NCBI GenBank assembly: GCA_901472405.1
Contig: LR590463.1
Span: forward strand, 434,001-498,000
DNA length: 64,000 nt
Direction: 5' to 3'
Source: Serratia rubidaea
GTDB taxonomy: Bacteria; Pseudomonadota; Gammaproteobacteria; Enterobacterales; Enterobacteriaceae
The notes under the pieces are model-generated. The model searched no databases. It saw only the letters and a program-made list of their open reading frames with translations, and was not told the origin of the DNA. The position numbers and the translations under genes are program-made. Within the stretch, counting starts at the first letter, position 1, and the number at the start of each line of letters is the position of its first letter. This document shows, in pieces, positions 31,964 to 43,583 of this stretch.

Positions 31964-32935
31964 ATGAATAAAAAGACCTTATTTACCCTGCTGCTGGTGG
32001 TGATCGCCATTGCGATGGCGGTATTGTTCCGCTCGCATAATCAGGATCTGTTGCTGCAGGGCGAAGTGGACGCGCCGGAAGTGATCGTGGCGTCAAAAGC
32101 CAAGGGACGGGTGGTGGAACGCCTGATTGAACGCGGCGATGACGTCAAGGCCGGCCAGGTGATGATTAAACTGGACAGCCCGGAGCTGCTGGCCCAGCTG
32201 CGTTCGGCGCAGGCGACGCGCGATGAGGCCAAGGCGCAGCTCGATCAGTCGCTGCACGGCACGCGCGAAGAGAACATCCGCAGCCTGCGCGCCAGCCTGG
32301 CGCAGGCGCAGGCCGAACTGCGCAACGCACAGCATGATTACGACCGCAACCGCAGCGTGGCGGCCAAAGGCTATATCTCCAAGTCCGAGCTGGACAGCTC
32401 GCGCCGTTCGCGCGATACCGCCTATCAACAGGTGCAGGACGCGAAGGCCAAGCTGGATGAAGGCATCAACGGCGACCGTATTGAGCTGCGTCAGCAATAC
32501 GCCGCGGCGCTGCGCGCAGCGGAAGAGAACCTGCTGGAAGTGCAGGCGCAGGCCGACGACCTGCAGGTGAAAGCGCCGGTGGACGGGGAAGTGGGGCCGA
32601 TTCCGGCCGAGGTCGGCGAACTGCTGAACGCCTCCAGCCCGCTGGTGACGCTGATCCGCCTGCCGGACGCCTACTTTGTGTTTAACCTGCGGGAAGATAT
32701 TCTGGCGAATATACGCAAGGGCGATAAGGTGAAGCTGCGCGTACCGGCGCTGAAGGATAAGCTCATCGATGCCGAAGTGCGTTATATCGCGCCGCTGGGG
32801 GATTACGCCACCAAACGCGCCACGCGCGCCACCGGCGACTTCGACCTGAAAACCTTTGAAGTACGCCTGTACCCGGCTCAGCCGATTGAAGGCCTGCGCC
32901 CAGGGATGAGCAGCTTATGGCAATGGAAAGAGTAA
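31964..32935 (+). CDS. HlyD-family periplasmic adaptor (membrane fusion protein)
   Basis: 323-residue membrane-fusion protein. N-terminal anchor helix (TLFTLLLVVIAIAMAVLF), lipoyl half-motif (GEVDAPEVIVASKAKGRVVE, ERGDDVKAGQVMIKLDS), a long alpha-hairpin (about 70-180) rich in Ala/Gln/Glu, then the second lipoyl half (DDLQVKAPVDGEVG) and beta-barrel. GGGAG lies eight bases before the ATG. It overlaps the first permease gene by 19 bp. Resembles E. coli YhiI in context, but an RbbA-like ATPase is missing. Confidence 0.88.
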   Translation: MNKKTLFTLLLVVIAIAMAVLFRSHNQDLLLQGEVDAPEVIVASKAKGRVVERLIERGDDVKAGQVMIKLDSPELLAQLRSAQATRDEAKAQLDQSLHGTREENIRSLRASLAQAQAELRNAQHDYDRNRSVAAKGYISKSELDSSRRSRDTAYQQVQDAKAKLDEGINGDRIELRQQYAAALRAAEENLLEVQAQADDLQVKAPVDGEVGPIPAEVGELLNASSPLVTLIRLPDAYFVFNLREDILANIRKGDKVKLRVPALKDKLIDAEVRYIAPLGDYATKRATRATGDFDLKTFEVRLYPAQPIEGLRPGMSSLWQWKE

Positions 32936-34071
32936 GGGCCGGATGGCGCTGCTTCAGCCACGCGTTTAACCGGGAGTGCCGGGTTGCCTTTCGCAGCCCG
33001 GTGATCCACTGGCTGGGCTGGCTGTTTCCGCTGATGCTGTTCGGCCTGATCAGCAGCAACTTCTCGGAGGGCACGCTGCTGAACCTGCCGGTTTCGGTGG
33101 TGGATAACGATCACAGCCCGCTGTCGAAATCGCTGATCCGCAAACTGGACGCAGGCTCCCATGCTCACGTCGAGGCCCATGACGGCGGGCTGAGCGAGTC
33201 GCTGCGCCGGCTGCGCAGCGCGCAGGACTATGCGCTGCTGTATGTGCCGCCGGATCTGGAGGCGAACGCCCTGGCGGGCAAGCAGCCGAGCATCGTGCTG
33301 TATTACAACGCTCTGTTCTACGGCGCCGGGCTCTATTCCACCCAGGATTTCAGCGGCCTGATGACGGAAACCAACGCCAGTTACCGCTCGATTATCGCCG
33401 CCAGCATGGGGAAAACGCTGCCGCAGCTGGCGGACGTGACGCTTAACTACGGCAGCCTGTTTAACGCCAGCGGCAGCTATATCTATTATCAGCAGTTCGC
33501 CGCGACCATTCACCTGCTGCAGCTGTTTGTCGTCACCTGCATGATCTATGTGATGGCGCGTAGCAAGTCGCTGCTGAGCGCGCGGCCGTTCAGCCTGGCG
33601 CTGCTGGGCAAGCTGGCGCCGTATACCATCTGCTTTACCACCCTGCTGATGATTGAGATTGCCGCGCTGGTGGGGATTTTCGACGCGCGCGTCAGCGGCA
33701 ACCCGCTGTTTATGCTGCTGATCGGCTTTTTCTACGTGGCGGCGGCACAGAGTATCGGCCTGCTGCTGTTTACCTTTACCGGCAGCGCGATCACCGCCTA
33801 CAGCCTGATCGGTATTCTGGTCAGTATTGCGATGACCTACTCCGGCATGGCGGTGCCGGAGCTGTCGATGCCGCTGCCGGCGCGGATTATTTCCAATATT
33901 GAGCCGCTGACCCATGCGCTGTACGCGATGTTTGACGTCTTCCTGCGCCAGGTGCCGGCGCGGGCGATTTTCGGCGTGTGCGCGCTGCTGCTGGTTTATC
34001 CGCTGGTGACCGCGTTTTTGGTGCGCAACCGGCTGCTGAAGCGGCTGGCTAAGGACGGAGGAGCGCAATGA
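32917..34071 (+). CDS. ABC-2 type permease, first of two
   Basis: 384-residue ABC-2 membrane protein. One N-terminal TM (VIHWLGWLFPLMLFGLISS), a large extracytoplasmic domain (LPVSVVDNDHSPLSKSLIRK motif typical of YhhJ/YbhR relatives), and about five C-terminal TMs. ATG at 32917 or 32923, both inside the HlyD gene. The stop overlaps the next gene (ATGA). No ATP-binding domain or separate ATPase gene is present in the operon. Confidence 0.88.
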   Translation: MAMERVRAGWRCFSHAFNRECRVAFRSPVIHWLGWLFPLMLFGLISSNFSEGTLLNLPVSVVDNDHSPLSKSLIRKLDAGSHAHVEAHDGGLSESLRRLRSAQDYALLYVPPDLEANALAGKQPSIVLYYNALFYGAGLYSTQDFSGLMTETNASYRSIIAASMGKTLPQLADVTLNYGSLFNASGSYIYYQQFAATIHLLQLFVVTCMIYVMARSKSLLSARPFSLALLGKLAPYTICFTTLLMIEIAALVGIFDARVSGNPLFMLLIGFFYVAAAQSIGLLLFTFTGSAITAYSLIGILVSIAMTYSGMAVPELSMPLPARIISNIEPLTHALYAMFDVFLRQVPARAIFGVCALLLVYPLVTAFLVRNRLLKRLAKDGGAQ

Positions 34072-35207
34072 AGAGCTACTGGCAAACCTTTAGCCGGGTG
34101 CTGATCGGCATGCTGGAGCGGCCGATGTGGCTGATGCTGATCCTGTCGCTGTGTGTAATGAGCCTGGTGTACGCCAACCGTTCGGTGTGGGATCTGCCGG
34201 TGGGGGTGATCGACCAGGATCACAGCAGCGCCAGCCGTGAGCTGATCCGCCAACTGGACGCCACCTCAAAAGTCGCCATCAAAACCTACGACAGCCTGGA
34301 GCAGGCCCAGCGCGATCTGGGCTGGCGCGAGCTGTTTGCGGTGATCATTATGCCGGTGAATCTGGAGAAGAAGATCCTGCACGGCGAGAACATTGTGGTG
34401 CCGGTGTACGGCGACGCCACCAACCGGCTGGCAAACGGCCAGATCCAGCAGGACGTGGTGACCGCCTATCAGCAGCTGCTGAGTCAGTACAATACCTCGC
34501 TGCTGCTGCGCAGCGGCTTTAGCGAACGGCAGGCGCAGATTATCCTGACGCCGATTCAGGGGCAGACGCTGGACGTGTTTAACCCCGGCATCAGCTTCGC
34601 GGCAATCGTGTTCCCCGGCCTGCTGGTCATGCTGCTGCAGCACTCGCTGCTGATCGCCAGCGTACGCGTCAGCATTGCGCTGAAAAGTGCACCGAGCGGC
34701 AAACCGTCGATCCCGGTGTACCTCGGCGGCCTGTCGGCGCTGCTGCCGATCTGGCTGTTTTTGTCCATCGTGCTGTTTGTGCTGTGGCCGTGGGTGTTGG
34801 GCTACCGGCAGACGGCGAACATTGCGGAGGTGCTGCTGCTGACCTTCCCGTTCCTGTTGGCGGTGCTGGGGTTAGGGAAGCTGGTGACCGAGTGCCTGCG
34901 CAGCGTGGAGATGATTTACCTGACGCTGGCGTTTATCACCACGCCGATTTTCTACCTTTCCGGCACCATCTGGCCGCTGCAGGCGATGCCGGGCTGGGTG
35001 CGCGCCATTTCATACTGCATTCCTTCCACCTGGGCCACCAAAGCGATCGCCGGGGTGAACCAGATGGGGATGTCGCTGAATGAAGTGGGGAACGACGTGC
35101 TGATGTTGCTGCTGCTTGGCGCGGTGTATACCGTGATCGGTATCGGAGTGGGGCTGGCGCATAACAGTGTGGCGCTGCGCAGTCTGTTCCGGAAACGGCG
35201 GGCGTAG
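34068..35207 (+). CDS. ABC-2 type permease, second of two
   Basis: 379 residues, same architecture as its neighbour: N-terminal TM (MWLMLILSLCVMSLVYAN), periplasmic domain with LPVGVIDQDHSSASRELIRQ, and C-terminal TMs including FNPGISFAAIVFPGLLVMLL and FITTPIFYLSGTIWP. Resembles YhhJ/YbhS-type drug-export permeases. The two probably form a heterodimer. It overlaps the upstream permease by 4 bp. The energy source is unclear because no ATPase gene accompanies them. Confidence 0.88.
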   Translation: MKSYWQTFSRVLIGMLERPMWLMLILSLCVMSLVYANRSVWDLPVGVIDQDHSSASRELIRQLDATSKVAIKTYDSLEQAQRDLGWRELFAVIIMPVNLEKKILHGENIVVPVYGDATNRLANGQIQQDVVTAYQQLLSQYNTSLLLRSGFSERQAQIILTPIQGQTLDVFNPGISFAAIVFPGLLVMLLQHSLLIASVRVSIALKSAPSGKPSIPVYLGGLSALLPIWLFLSIVLFVLWPWVLGYRQTANIAEVLLLTFPFLLAVLGLGKLVTECLRSVEMIYLTLAFITTPIFYLSGTIWPLQAMPGWVRAISYCIPSTWATKAIAGVNQMGMSLNEVGNDVLMLLLLGAVYTVIGIGVGLAHNSVALRSLFRKRRA

Positions 35208-35289: not shown

Positions 35290-35404
35290 AAGTGAAAATA
35301 AATTAATTGTTTTTCAATTGGTTATATTTTTCAGATTATCGTGAAAAGTCGGTGGCTTTTTTAAGTGGTAAAAAATCAATATAATTCAATTGGATATATT
35401 TAGT
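35290..35404 (+). promoter_or_regulatory. AT-rich CRISPR leader
   Basis: Strongly AT-rich stretch in a GC-rich region, immediately before the first repeat. It contains a TATAAT at 35380-35385, 20 bp upstream of repeat 1. The degenerate repeat at the opposite end supports this side as the leader and + strand transcription. Confidence 0.65.
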
Positions 35405-35860
35405 GTGTTCCCCGCGCGAGCGGGGATAAACCGGTCGTACCCGGATTATCATCTGCAACAAAAAAGTGTTCCCCGCGCGAGCGGGGATAAACCGGCCGTA
35501 ACAATAGCCGGAGGACAACGAAATCTGTGTTCCCCGCGCGAGCGGGGATAAACCGTCACCGGTACTCACATCTTAATCTAAGGACCAGTGTTCCCCGCGC
35601 GAGCGGGGATAAACCAGCCAGCGCAGTATCGCCGCCATAATAGAAATCGTGTTCCCCGCGCGAGCGGGGATAAACCGGGTGTATTTCAGGCCTGGCGCGC
35701 CTGCGAAGAGTGTTCCCCGCGCGAGCGGGGATAAACCGCAGGTCCCTGTGATGGGTGAAGACGGTCTGCAGTGTTCCCCGCGCGAGCGGGGATAAACCGG
35801 ACATGATTACCGCTGCGTTTATCCAGCAGTAGTGTTCCCCGTGTGAACGGGGATTAACCA
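35405..35860 (+). CRISPR. Type I-E-like CRISPR array, eight repeats, seven spacers
   Basis: 29-bp repeats start at 35405, 35466, 35527, 35588, 35649, 35710, 35771 and 35832, with a strict 61-bp period and seven 32-bp spacers. The repeat begins GTGTTCCCCGCGCGAGCGGG and ends GATAAACCG, close to the E. coli type I-E repeat. Repeat 4 ends in A instead of G. The last repeat is degenerate (GTGTGAACGGGGATTAACCA), marking the leader-distal end. No cas gene is present in the window. The array ends 4 bp before the ubiV stop codon. Spacer targets cannot be identified by eye. Confidence 0.97.
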
Positions 35861-35864
35861 GCAG

Positions 35865-36743
35865 TTACCGCACCAGTTCCAGCCCGGCGACGCGCCGCCA
35901 GTAACCGTTGCAGTCGCTGTCGTTGGTCAGCGCCAGCGGCTGCCCGGCATTTTCGTTGGCGCGGAACTGCTCGAGCATCGCCAGCGTTTCCATGCCCTGC
36001 GGCGACAGCCGCACGATATCGACCAGCTCCTGCATACCGCTTAGCTCATTACCCAGGTTGTAGCAGTAGCCGCTCATCGTCTGGATGCCGTTGAGCACGA
36101 ATACCTGCTGGTTTTCCTGTGAGCGCATGGCGCGCCCCTGCGGGTATTTGATGCAGCAGGTTTCGCACTCATCCTTGCCGCGGTTTTCCGAGCGTGCGGT
36201 AAAGCAGCGGGCGGAGTAGGCCAGCGGCAGGTGGCCGTAGCCCAGCACCTCTACCTCAAAGCCGCGGCGGAAGCCCAGCTCGGCGCACTGCTCCAGCACC
36301 TTGCCCAGCCAGTCGCGGGACAGTTCCACCGGCATGCACCAGCGCGTCATGCCCTGCTTGTGCAGCAGCCGCAGGGTATAGGCGTTGTAGCAGTTCAGTG
36401 CGTGACCGGCGACGAACGGCAGGCCGCGCTCCGCCGCCATATTCACCGTACCGAGATCGTTAGCCTCTATCAGAAACTCGCCGTTTTCCACGTAGCGTTT
36501 CAGCTCGTTTAATTCGGAAGGCGCCTGCAGCAATGCCAGAGTGGAGAGCACTACCTGCTTGCCGGACTGCGCCACCGCTTTAGCCAGCGCCAGCCAGTCG
36601 CCGACCTTCATCTCACGCCGCTTGGTGCAGACGCTTTCACCGAGATAAATAATATCGGCGCTGCTGTGCATCGCCTGCTGGTAAAAGCTCTCGGTCTCGG
36701 TTTTCGGCCAGTAGTAGAGCACTGGCCCCAATGCGTATTTCAT
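35865..36743 (-). CDS. ubiV: O2-independent ubiquinone hydroxylation protein UbiV
   Basis: U32-family 4Fe-4S protein that with UbiU hydroxylates the ubiquinone ring under anaerobiosis (E. coli YhbV). 292 residues from ATG 36743 (MKYALGPVLYYWPKTETESF). Candidate cluster ligands are the Cys in GESVCTKRREM and three in CFTARSENRGKDECETCCIK. The upstream ATG at 36764 adds unconserved residues overlapping ubiU and was rejected. It follows ubiU by 11 bp. Its 3' end abuts the CRISPR array. Confidence 0.94.
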   Translation of the reverse strand: MKYALGPVLYYWPKTETESFYQQAMHSSADIIYLGESVCTKRREMKVGDWLALAKAVAQSGKQVVLSTLALLQAPSELNELKRYVENGEFLIEANDLGTVNMAAERGLPFVAGHALNCYNAYTLRLLHKQGMTRWCMPVELSRDWLGKVLEQCAELGFRRGFEVEVLGYGHLPLAYSARCFTARSENRGKDECETCCIKYPQGRAMRSQENQQVFVLNGIQTMSGYCYNLGNELSGMQELVDIVRLSPQGMETLAMLEQFRANENAGQPLALTNDSDCNGYWRRVAGLELVR

Positions 36744-36754
36744 GCAGCCTCCTG

Positions 36755-37750
36755 CTATTGCCATTTACGGTGATAGGCGCCGAGCGTGGTTTGAGTGCCT
36801 TCAGACATGGCGCCGAGCGCCGTCATCCAGCCGGCGTCGGGCTGGTAGCCAGCGGGGTCGGCGATGCAGCGGTCGATCGCCTGGCGCCAGACGCGCGCCA
36901 CCTGGCTGACGTAGGCCGGGCTGCGCTGGCGCCCCTCAATTTTTACCGAAGCGATATTGGCGGCCAGCAGCTCCGGCAGCAGCGCCAGCGTGTTCAGGCT
37001 GGTGGGTTCTTCCAGCGCGTGGTAGCGCACGTCGTCAACCAGATAGCGCCCTTTGCACAGCGTCGGGTAACCGGCGTTTTCGCCTTCCTGATAGCGGTCA
37101 ATCAGCACGTCGTTGAGGCGTGATTCCATGCCCTGCGGCGTCTGCTGCCAGCGGACAAAGCGCGCCGGCGAACAGGCGCCGACGGTATTGGGGGACTCGC
37201 CGGTCAGGTAAGAAGAGAGATAGCAGCGGCCTTCCGCCATGATGCACAGGCTGCCGAAGGCGAACACCTCCAGCGGCACCGGGCTGGTGCGCGCCAGTTG
37301 TTTCACCTGATGCATCGACAGCACGCGCGGCAGCACCACGCGGTGCACGGCAAAGTGGCGCTGATAGAAGCGAATCGCCTCCTCATTGGTGGCGGAGGCC
37401 TGCACCGAGACGTGGCGCTCAATATGCGGATAGCGCTCGGCGGCGTACTCCAGCATCGCCAGATCCGCCAGAATCAGCGCGTCGGCGCCCAGCTGCGCCG
37501 CCATATCCACCGCGCGCTGCCAGCGGGCGTAGCCGTCGGGGTGGGCGAAGGTGTTGATGGCGATATGCAGCTTACGACCGTGACGGTGAACATACTCCAC
37601 CGCTTCCTGCAGTTTTTTTTCGCTGAAGTTGAGCCCGGCGAAGTGGCGCGCGTTGGTGTCGTCCTTCAGACCGATATACACGGCGTCGGCGCCGTTATCG
37701 ACCGCGGCCTTCAGCGCCGGTAAATTCCCGGCGGGACAAAGCAGCTCCAT
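36755..37750 (-). CDS. ubiU: O2-independent ubiquinone hydroxylation protein UbiU
   Basis: Partner of UbiV (E. coli YhbU), 331 residues, U32 peptidase-like fold. Starts MELLCPAGNLPALKAAVDNG. Cluster cysteines are probably those in GSLCIMAEGRCYLSSYLTGE, NTVGACSPARF and PTLCKGRYLV. First gene of ubiUV, divergent from ubiT across about 250 bp. In E. coli these genes are FNR-activated; a TTGAT half-site is visible in the shared region but no clear full FNR box. Confidence 0.95.
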   Translation of the reverse strand: MELLCPAGNLPALKAAVDNGADAVYIGLKDDTNARHFAGLNFSEKKLQEAVEYVHRHGRKLHIAINTFAHPDGYARWQRAVDMAAQLGADALILADLAMLEYAAERYPHIERHVSVQASATNEEAIRFYQRHFAVHRVVLPRVLSMHQVKQLARTSPVPLEVFAFGSLCIMAEGRCYLSSYLTGESPNTVGACSPARFVRWQQTPQGMESRLNDVLIDRYQEGENAGYPTLCKGRYLVDDVRYHALEEPTSLNTLALLPELLAANIASVKIEGRQRSPAYVSQVARVWRQAIDRCIADPAGYQPDAGWMTALGAMSEGTQTTLGAYHRKWQ

Positions 37751-40361: not shown

Positions 40362-40604
40362 CTAACGGCGTTTGCGCTCCGGAATGACCGGCATAATGCT
40401 GAAGTGCGCCATATCCGCCGGGGAAATTTTAAAATGTGCGGGGTATTTGGCCGGGTCGGTAATAAAATCCGGTTCGCTGCTGCGCCAGGTGAAGAAGCAG
40501 GTTGCACAGTGGAACACCGTCCAGGCATCTTTTACCGGCGAGTGGCACAGCACCTCCGGCCCGGCGGATTCACAGCGCGGGCACGCGGCGGGCAGCTTAT
40601 TCAT
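40362..40604 (-). CDS. Non-oxidative hydroxyarylic acid decarboxylase, small subunit D
   Basis: 80-residue zinc-ribbon-like subunit (VdcD/YclD family). Starts MNKLPAACPRCESAGPEVLC with CPRC and a second pair HCATCFFTW, then DPAKYPAHFKISPADMAHF. Required with subunit C for reversible decarboxylation of 4-hydroxybenzoate or vanillate in relatives. The ATG overlaps the subunit C stop (ATGA). I rejected a long ORF running through subunit C into D, which is created by indels. Confidence 0.85.
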   Translation of the reverse strand: MNKLPAACPRCESAGPEVLCHSPVKDAWTVFHCATCFFTWRSSEPDFITDPAKYPAHFKISPADMAHFSIMPVIPERKRR

Positions 40605-42051
40605 TTCTCCTCCTCCTGTTCCTGAGCGGTTTGCGCGGCCTGAATCAGGACCTGCAGTTTCTCCACCCAGGCCTCGGTGGTGATAGGGTCGTCCAGCCCC
40701 TGCTCGAAGCGGCCGTGCGTTTCCGGCGCTTTGGGCGTGGTGGCGTCGATAATCACTTTGCCGGTAATGCCGCCGGTTGCGACGCCGGATCCAGCGCAGC
40801 ACCGACAGCCCGGGCACGGTAATCAGATCAAAGTCGGGGTTGAACTTGGTGGCGATAGCCCACATCACCTGCGGCAGATTAAACGGGTCCACTGTCTCAT
40901 CAACCACGATCACCAGCTTGGCATAGCCGAGGCCGTGCGGGGTGGTCAGCACGCGCATCCCGACGCCTTTGGCAAAACCGCCGAAGCGGGTGCGGGTAGA
41001 AACAATCACCACCAGCCCGTGGGTATACAGCGCGTTGACCGCCACCACCTCAGGGAAGGCCTGCTTGAGCTGCACGTACAGCGGGGCGCAGGTGTTGATG
41101 CCGATCAGGTAGTCAACCTCCGTCCACGGCATGCCGAGGTACAGATGTTCGAAGATCGGCCGGCTTCGGCAGGAGATGCGGGTGATCTCCACCACCGGCA
41201 TCAGGCGGCCGCCGGAATAGTGGCCGGTAAACTCCCCGAACGGTCCTTCGGCCTCGCGCACCCGCGACAGGATGCGTCCTTCCAGCATCACCTCCGAGCT
41301 CCACGGCAGGTCGAGACCGCTGTACTCGCTGTAGACGACGGGATAGGGCGCGCCGTTCAGCGCGGCAGCCATGGCATATTCCGACTGATCGTAGAGGATC
41401 GGCATCGCGCCGGCGGTGGTGAGCATGGGATCGTTGCCGATGGCAATGGCGATCGGCAGATCGACACCCAGCTCCTCGGCGCGCTGCAGGTGAATGGCGA
41501 TATCATGCGCCGGCACCGGCTGAATGCCCAGCCGGGCAGGGCCTTTGACTTCGAGGCGATAAATGCCGACGTTCTGACTGGGCCGATTGTCGGCCAGCGA
41601 CGGATCGCGCGAGATCACGCAGGCTTTATCGATATAAAAGCCGCCGTCGCCGTGGTTGAGGCGAAACAGCGGCAAAATATCGAACAGGCTGACCGCCTGA
41701 TCGACCACTATCTCCTGCCAGGGGGGCGCTGTCGAGCTGCTCGACTTCGCCGGGATAGTTTTGGTAACGGCGTACAAACTCGAAGAACTGACTTTTTAAC
41801 GGGGTGTTTTTCGGCAGATCCATGGCGATCGCCAGATTGGGCCAGGAGCCGTGCACGTTCATCGCGATGCGCGCGGTGTGATAGCCGTACACGTTTTCAA
41901 ACAGCAATGCCGGTGAGTCGTCGCCCAGTCTGCTGGCGGCGCAGGCCGCGGCGGCAAGATCCGGTTCGGGACGAACCTGTTCGGTCACGCGCAGTAGTTG
42001 CTGCTGGGCTTCCAGCGCGGCCAGGTAGCTACGTAAGTCGGCATACGGCAT
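40601..42051 (-). CDS. Non-oxidative hydroxyarylic acid decarboxylase, UbiD-type subunit C (three apparent indels)
   Basis: UbiD-family decarboxylase of about 483 residues using prenylated FMN, related to VdcC/YclC. Starts MPYADLRSYLAALEAQQQLL. Conserved pieces are AIGNDPMLTTAGAMPI, EVDYLIGINTCAPLYVQLKQ and MWAIATKFNPDFDLITVPGL. One C is extra in the run at 41721-41726, and single bases are missing near 40795 and 40770. Correction gives LSVLPLDPASQPAGITGKVI and the C-terminus EQEEK before the overlapping subunit D. The flavin prenyltransferase partner (VdcB/Pad1) is not encoded next to it. Confidence 0.87.
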
Positions 42052-42839: not shown

Positions 42840-43583
42840 GATCGATGCGCAGGCCGTCGTACGCTAGTTCCACGCCCGGCGGCAGCGGATGGTCCAGCAG
42901 CCAGGCGTCGAGCCGGTGGCTGATATGCGTCAGCAGGGTGCGCGGCGGCCGCAGATGCTGCTGAATCTCCAGCGCGCGGGTGAGGTCGTTATGGTTGCGC
43001 GGCGCCTGCGGCTGCGGCGGCAGGCTGCAGTCCAGCACCAGCAGATCCAGGCGGACGCCCTCCAGAAAGCGCTGGTCTCCGCCGGCAGGCCGACGGTGTC
43101 GGTCAGGTAGGCCAGCGCGCCGTCGGCGCTCTGGATCAGGTAGCCGTGGGTGATTTTAGAGTGGTTCAGCGGCAGCGGAGTGATGCGCAGCCCGCCCAGT
43201 GTCACGCTGACAAACGGCGTCAGCGGCGGCTGAAAGTCCAGAATGCCGGGGGTGTTTGAACAGGTCGTCGCAGCCCTGTTCATCGGCCGGGCCGTACACC
43301 GGAATGGAATTTCCGCACCCCCCAGCGCAAATGAAATAGCCCCTGAACGTGATCCATGTGGTAATGTGTCAGTAAAAAACGCTGAATTTGCCCCGCCGAA
43401 AACCGCCTCTCCAATGACGTCAATCCCGCATCAATTAACGTAGTTTCCCCTGAAAATACAGCATGGCGCTGCATGCGCGCCGACGAAAGGCCGGTTCGTT
43501 CCGCGCCCGCCGGCAGATGGCGCATTCGCAGCGAACGCCGGCACCTGCTGGGCGCCGCCGGTGCCGAGAAAGGTCAGTTGCAT
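42769..43583 (-). CDS. phnP: Phosphoribosyl 1,2-cyclic phosphodiesterase PhnP (five apparent indels)
   Basis: Metallo-beta-lactamase-fold enzyme that opens the 1,2-cyclic ribose phosphate formed by C-P lyase. Starts [17 protein letters not shown]. The metal motif is [19 protein letters not shown], and [30 protein letters not shown] and [13 protein letters not shown] follow. Apparent deletions near 43531, 43449 and 43066 and insertions near 43320 and 43249 must be corrected; the result is about 271 residues. E. coli PhnP is 252; the extra C-terminal tail ([21 protein letters not shown]) overlaps the convergent gene and is uncertain. Last gene of the phn operon. Confidence 0.85.

Follow-up and report, generated by a model that had tools for sequence, protein, structure and literature searches.

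The window, a 64,000-nucleotide stretch of Serratia rubidaea DNA (contig LR590463.1, positions 434,001 to 498,000), carries a type I-E CRISPR array for which the assembly holds no matching Cascade or Cas6e. We consider it highly probable (about 0.9) that a complete type I-E locus formerly occupied the gap between an exporter operon and ubiV, lost its cas genes by deletion, and left this array stranded. A published survey of Serratia (Scrascia et al. 2023, PMC9981886) appears to contain already the array, the region in which it lies, and the mismatch between its type and the resident cas subtype, and as a discovery this ordinary stranded I-E array therefore carries little weight. To what that survey reports, the present analysis adds that the same gap is occupied by a complete locus in S. 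inhibens S40, that an exporter-side leader survives, and that two spacers plausibly point to P1-like phage-plasmids and to a prophage head gene.

Array, leader, and flanking genes

Eight 29-nt repeats and seven 32-nt spacers follow one another with a strict 61-nt period (Table 1), as a sequence-only reading of the window had stated. Six of the first seven repeats are identical and the fourth deviates at its last base. The 28-nt repeat core (≤3 mismatches) occurs seven times in the 5.0-Mb genome, always inside the array, and a backwards-read control gave 0 matches, which excludes a chance array. Repeat length and partial palindromy, unique spacers, and period all fall within the type I-E pattern (repeats of 28 to 29 nt, spacers of 32 to 33 nt, period of 61 nt), and the AT-rich leader is homologous to that of a complete I-E locus (see below). 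The repeat is the exact reverse complement of one I-E consensus in Table 2 of the survey (PMC9981886).

The direction of the repeats, the AT-rich upstream stretch, and the degenerate last repeat place the leader on the exporter side; the well-defined leader, near-identical repeats, and degenerate terminal repeat of the sequence-only reading were all borne out. A promoter scan, for which 0.6 sites were expected, gave one, located on the opposite strand. A loose IHF-type motif gave two one-mismatch matches (35297 and 35312), which lie far from the first repeat and were given no weight. The plasmid records that matched leader plus array, all 32 at 60 to 80% identity, look like repeat-to-repeat matches to other arrays and were set aside.

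The array does lie between an exporter operon and ubiV. The adaptor ORF (31964 to 32935) passes only the general model for RND adaptors and stays below the MdtN cut-off (102 bits versus 376), and the permeases match RbbA/DrrB-type models below cut-off. A PhnP fragment (42930 to 43283; 82.5 bits, cut-off 272) is found on the other side, and the MdtN-like adaptor and the PhnP fragment flank the array, one on each side, as the published context name mdtN-phnP says. In the same region, a VdcC/UbiD-type decarboxylase gene (40362 to 42051) is divided into two ORFs, the downstream one also carrying a VdcD part, and the phnP gene is left as a fragment (region 42842 to 43560). Together with the 91% completeness score of the genome, these two genes hint at frameshift errors in the assembly.

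Table 1. Features of the array and its neighborhood, in window coordinates
Feature	Position	Strand	Basis
Exporter operon: periplasmic adaptor (HlyD/MdtN-like) and two ABC-2-type permeases	31964..35207	+	ORFs, family models
AT-rich leader, portion adjoining first repeat	35295..35404	+	78% A+T; leader alignments
Type I-E-type CRISPR array, 8 × 29-nt repeats, 7 × 32-nt spacers	35405..35860	+	Repeat period; repeat consensus in Table 2 of PMC9981886
Spacer 1, newest by position	35434..35465	+	Putative target in darB-like gene of plasmids
Spacer 7, oldest by position	35800..35831	+	Putative target in phage major head protein gene
Degenerate terminal repeat	35832..35860	+	5 differences from consensus; ends 4 nt before ubiV ORF
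ubiV	35865..36764	-	NCBIfam NF047965 UbiV, 368.6 bits > cut-off 275

The site in the published survey

For S. rubidaea FDAARGOS_926 (NZ_CP065640.1) and NCTC12971 (LR590463.1), the survey reports an “alien” I-E array of eight repeats in context A (mdtN-phnP), together with I-C cas genes and a 15-repeat I-C array, and with two further “alien” arrays of type I-F, which have six and three repeats (Scrascia et al. 2023, PMC9981886). All four repeat counts equal ours, and comparison with the published description, which covers the same eight repeats, seven spacers, and I-C and I-F companions, revealed no difference. The window array also fits what the survey calls alien, as its repeats are I-E and the cas genes found are I-C.

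The array had been placed in a core locus of conserved housekeeping DNA. That description needs correction, as mdtN-phnP is a known CRISPR-cas site in Serratia (PMC9981886, section 3.4; the survey does not name ubiV) and S. inhibens S40 holds a whole I-E system in the gap. According to Table A2 of the survey, eight genomes, two of S. plymuthica and six of S. marcescens, carry in context A an I-E cas set, designated either plain or “unique locus 1”, and four genomes of S. marcescens and one of a Serratia sp. carry I-E arrays there without any cas set; a pattern of systems gained, lost, and stranded at this site is therefore known. The content of the region often changes, since in S. inhibens PRI-2c it is I-F1 that occupies context A (PMC9981886). 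For S. rubidaea, the Table 1 passage and part 1 of Table A2 list I-E arrays but no I-E cas set. The survey names two ways in which alien arrays may originate, as what is left of older systems or through horizontal transfer, without choosing between them.

cas genes and other arrays in the genome

The genome searched (G000, of which the window is part) comprises 5.0 Mb in one contig and was scored 91% complete. The I-E families searched genome-wide were Cse1, Cas6e, and Cas1, and the Cse1, Cas6e, and Cas6f/Csy4 searches each matched in one or two named control genomes. Neither Cse1 (Cas8e) nor Cas6e was found in the whole genome by family search (E ≤ 0.001), nor was Cas6f/Csy4, and the single Cas1 present, a Cas1c, belongs to a separate I-C locus, which leaves the Cas1e-Cas2e pair of a functional I-E system without its Cas1e. 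Accordingly, the assembly offers the I-E array neither a matching Cascade nor a Cas6e. No cas genes had been seen nearby by sequence alone, and this held: eight S. inhibens I-E Cas proteins found no I-E cas gene or fragment in the window by tblastn (best E = 0.13). The repeat core (≤3 mismatches) revealed no second array of this type elsewhere in the genome, the other arrays being I-C and I-F.

The sequence-only reading had offered two alternatives, Cas proteins acting in trans or lost. The well-kept leader and repeats would suit an active array on which I-E Cas proteins, supplied from genes at another place in the cell, act in trans. Against this reading stand the absence of Cse1, Cas6e, and a second Cas1 from a one-contig genome (E ≤ 0.001; 91% complete, with any unassembled plasmid outside the search) and of any further array with the I-E repeat. 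Action in trans is refuted for the assembly searched (E ≤ 0.001) and is very improbable for the cell; of the two alternatives, it is loss that fits. The array had also been called recently active, which is upheld for the past of the lineage only, through a recognizable leader and a leader-end spacer identical at 29 of 32 positions to present plasmids; nothing shows present activity.

The recognition of CRISPR repeats is subtype specific, which argues against use of the I-E array by the resident type I-C machinery. That machinery is present (Cas5c, Cas8c, Cas7c, Cas4, Cas1c, and two Cas3c pieces), but its own array of 15 repeats has a different 32-nt repeat and a 65- to 67-nt spacing, and its cas3 consists of two ORFs; we regard such use as highly unlikely. 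The cas3 of this I-C locus (L010:1-2137; G000 3.3365 to 3.3386 Mb) is broken or misassembled, since its two overlapping ORFs match successive parts of Cas3c models. Two I-F-type arrays, also reported in the survey (PMC9981886), lack Cas6f in this genome as well: one of six repeats at 2.01 Mb (C1:2009264-2009591) and one of three repeats at 2.83 Mb (2830454-2830602).

The same site in relatives

Loci were compared around UbiV as the query, with 80 named loci of 404 kept, up to 6 kb of flank per side, and repeats accepted with ≤6 substitutions. Three of the 80 have repeat-like copies beside ubiV: L024 of S. inhibens, L023 of S. marcescens 106R, and L015 of S. quinivorans, where the two copies found are isolated and poor.

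In S. inhibens S40 (L024, L127) the gap between ubiV and the exporter is filled by a complete I-E operon between two arrays, with 47 repeats on the ubiV side and 11 on the exporter side. All eight genes (Cas2e, Cas1e, Cas6e, Cas5e, Cas7e, Cas11e, Cas8e, and Cas3e) were assigned by PADLOC models. The window and S. inhibens S40 share the gap, the array orientation, and a homologous exporter-side leader, and their main repeats are one or two bases apart, but the window has one array without cas genes in place of two arrays and eight cas genes, and no spacer is common to both (best 21/32). Compared with their counterparts next to the S. inhibens locus, the adaptor and the last permease of the window show 86% identity. 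Aligned with the exporter-side leader of S. inhibens, the window leader shows 69/94 identities and a score of 54, against 27 for the best of 100 shuffles; aligned with the cas2-side leader it scores only 25, against a shuffle best of 22. The surviving piece therefore looks like the exporter-side leader with its array.

A second genome of the genus (G001) has, at the same site, a homologous leader (159/197 identical between exporter stop and first repeat) and the 28-nt core of the window in two of its repeats. It differs in having only three repeats and two different spacers, and family searches found neither Cse1 nor Cas6e in it. A Cas1f gene (L129:3411-4304) lies about 4 kb from this I-E remnant, so that a second CRISPR type is present in the neighborhood.

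Shrunken remains are also present at the site in S. marcescens 106R, with 2 + 1 repeats and no Cse1 by family search. Its two relics of I-E repeats are about 7.8 kb apart (L128:4056-11876). Within this interval, the place of the cas operon in S. inhibens, none of the I-E Cas proteins of S. inhibens found a match (E ≤ 0.001), and none of the five ORFs tried from it matches a PADLOC model.

Across 22 genomes (those of chosen loci plus G001), Cse1 was found in four, S. inhibens, S. oryzae, Serratia sp. Ag1, and Enterobacillus tribolii, of which only S. inhibens has it by ubiV within the flanks examined. The repeat core (≤3 mismatches) is present in 11 of the 22, as a single copy in seven.

Spacers and their putative targets

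AAG is the type of protospacer-adjacent motif expected for type I-E, and two of the seven spacers (1 and 7) have plausible targets beside it in mobile elements. Spacer 1 matches at 29 of 32 positions a darB-like methylase/helicase gene of Salmonella pCFSAN058588 and Enterobacter kobei pSG.H2a_2, with AAG directly upstream in both (best E, 4e-4); to judge from the darB-like gene, these plasmids would be P1-like. They are the two examined among 549 plasmid records matched at E ≤ 1, and reversed spacer 1 had no match in plasmids. Among phages, 17 records were matched, the matches listed being mostly in darB of P1-like phages; identity is 26/32 in P1 and 27/32 in Cronobacter phage JK004, both with AGG.

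Spacer 7 matches three viral contigs at 30 of 32 positions; the upstream motif is AAG in L137 and AAA in the two others, and the putative target gene in L137 is a major head protein (PHROGs). It also matches 3 of 5426 E. coli genomes (best E, 1e-3), in each case in a gene annotated as phage capsid protein; the one match examined is 28/32 with AAG. The reversed core of spacer 7 gave 0 matches in viral contigs, and spacer 7 itself had none in phage records. Its plasmid matches, 19 nt only and in ParB-family genes in seven of the eight listed, were not counted.

For the remaining five (spacers 2 to 6), phage records and viral contigs, the collections covered, yielded no convincing target. Most of their matches in phage records (E 0.08 to 0.9) are short, and most lie in phages whose hosts are unrelated, apart from one Klebsiella phage (spacer 6); none was counted. 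The core 20-mers of spacers 1 to 6 had no exact match in viral contigs.

Orphan arrays that act against cas genes have been described in E. coli for type I-F, and an anti-cas or self-regulating decoy, with spacers directed at cas or chromosomal genes, would be a precedented role for the window array. However, no spacer exceeded 22/32 against the I-C locus of the same genome or against the I-E regions taken from S. inhibens, Enterobacillus, S. oryzae, and Serratia sp. Ag1, and leader plus array matched only itself in its own genome (E ≤ 0.001, a weak test for single 32-nt matches). We consider such a role extremely improbable.

Origin of the array

We propose the following. A complete type I-E CRISPR-Cas locus would once have sat between the exporter operon and ubiV, and the living system would have taken up 32-nt pieces of phage and phage-plasmid DNA beside AAG, of which spacers 1 and 7 may be traceable examples. 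Comparison with S. inhibens suggests that everything from cas3 through the ubiV-side array was then deleted, cas operon included, and that the exporter-side leader and a short array were left behind. Because no Cas6e and no Cascade were found in the genome, a transcript of the array, should there be one, would now not be processed into crRNAs or put to use, and the array would gain no further spacers; it would be in passive decay. If the ancestor resembled S. inhibens, its two arrays may have recombined and so caused the deletion; the leader fits this idea, which stays a guess because the terminal repeats are too degenerate to show from which array the end derives.

Horizontal transfer is among the options given in the survey, and by that route the array would have come alone, unaccompanied by cas genes. 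Such an arrival would accord with the lack of Cse1 in both genomes of the genus examined (G000 and G001) and with the S. rubidaea tables, which contain I-E arrays but no I-E cas set (PMC9981886). It is nevertheless very unlikely, as gap and orientation are those of the complete S. inhibens locus, the leader is homologous, and the flanking gene order is kept. Deletion of the cas genes is favored over such transfer, a choice left open in the survey, because of the occupied gap in S. inhibens S40, the exporter-side leader, and the two spacer targets.

The shrunken remains at the site in G001 (leader and three repeats) and S. marcescens 106R count in favor of a remnant. Counted against it are the lack of any cas fragment in the window, the restriction of repeats by ubiV, within the flanks examined, to S. 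inhibens among the four Cse1-bearing genomes of the 22, the absence of Cse1 from both G000 and G001 and of an I-E cas set from the S. rubidaea listings of PMC9981886, the five of seven spacers without a convincing target, and the frequent change of content at the site. As to relatives that share the site, S. inhibens S40 has the complete I-E operon, and G001 and S. marcescens 106R are without Cse1.

It is conceivable, if very improbable, that leader and repeats are good enough to serve as a dormant memory bank usable by incoming I-E Cas proteins. Were this so, I-E Cas proteins arriving on a mobile element would process the array at once and protect against P1-like phage-plasmids.

In 60 genomes chosen by kinship, the genome studied included, Cse1 was present in 6, and DNA matching leader plus repeat was present in 13 (E ≤ 0.001), in some of them weakly. 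Two genomes of the same family (G033 and G038) gave 36 and 53 leader-repeat matches with neither Cse1 nor Cas6e and are apparently further genomes with many stranded I-E repeats.
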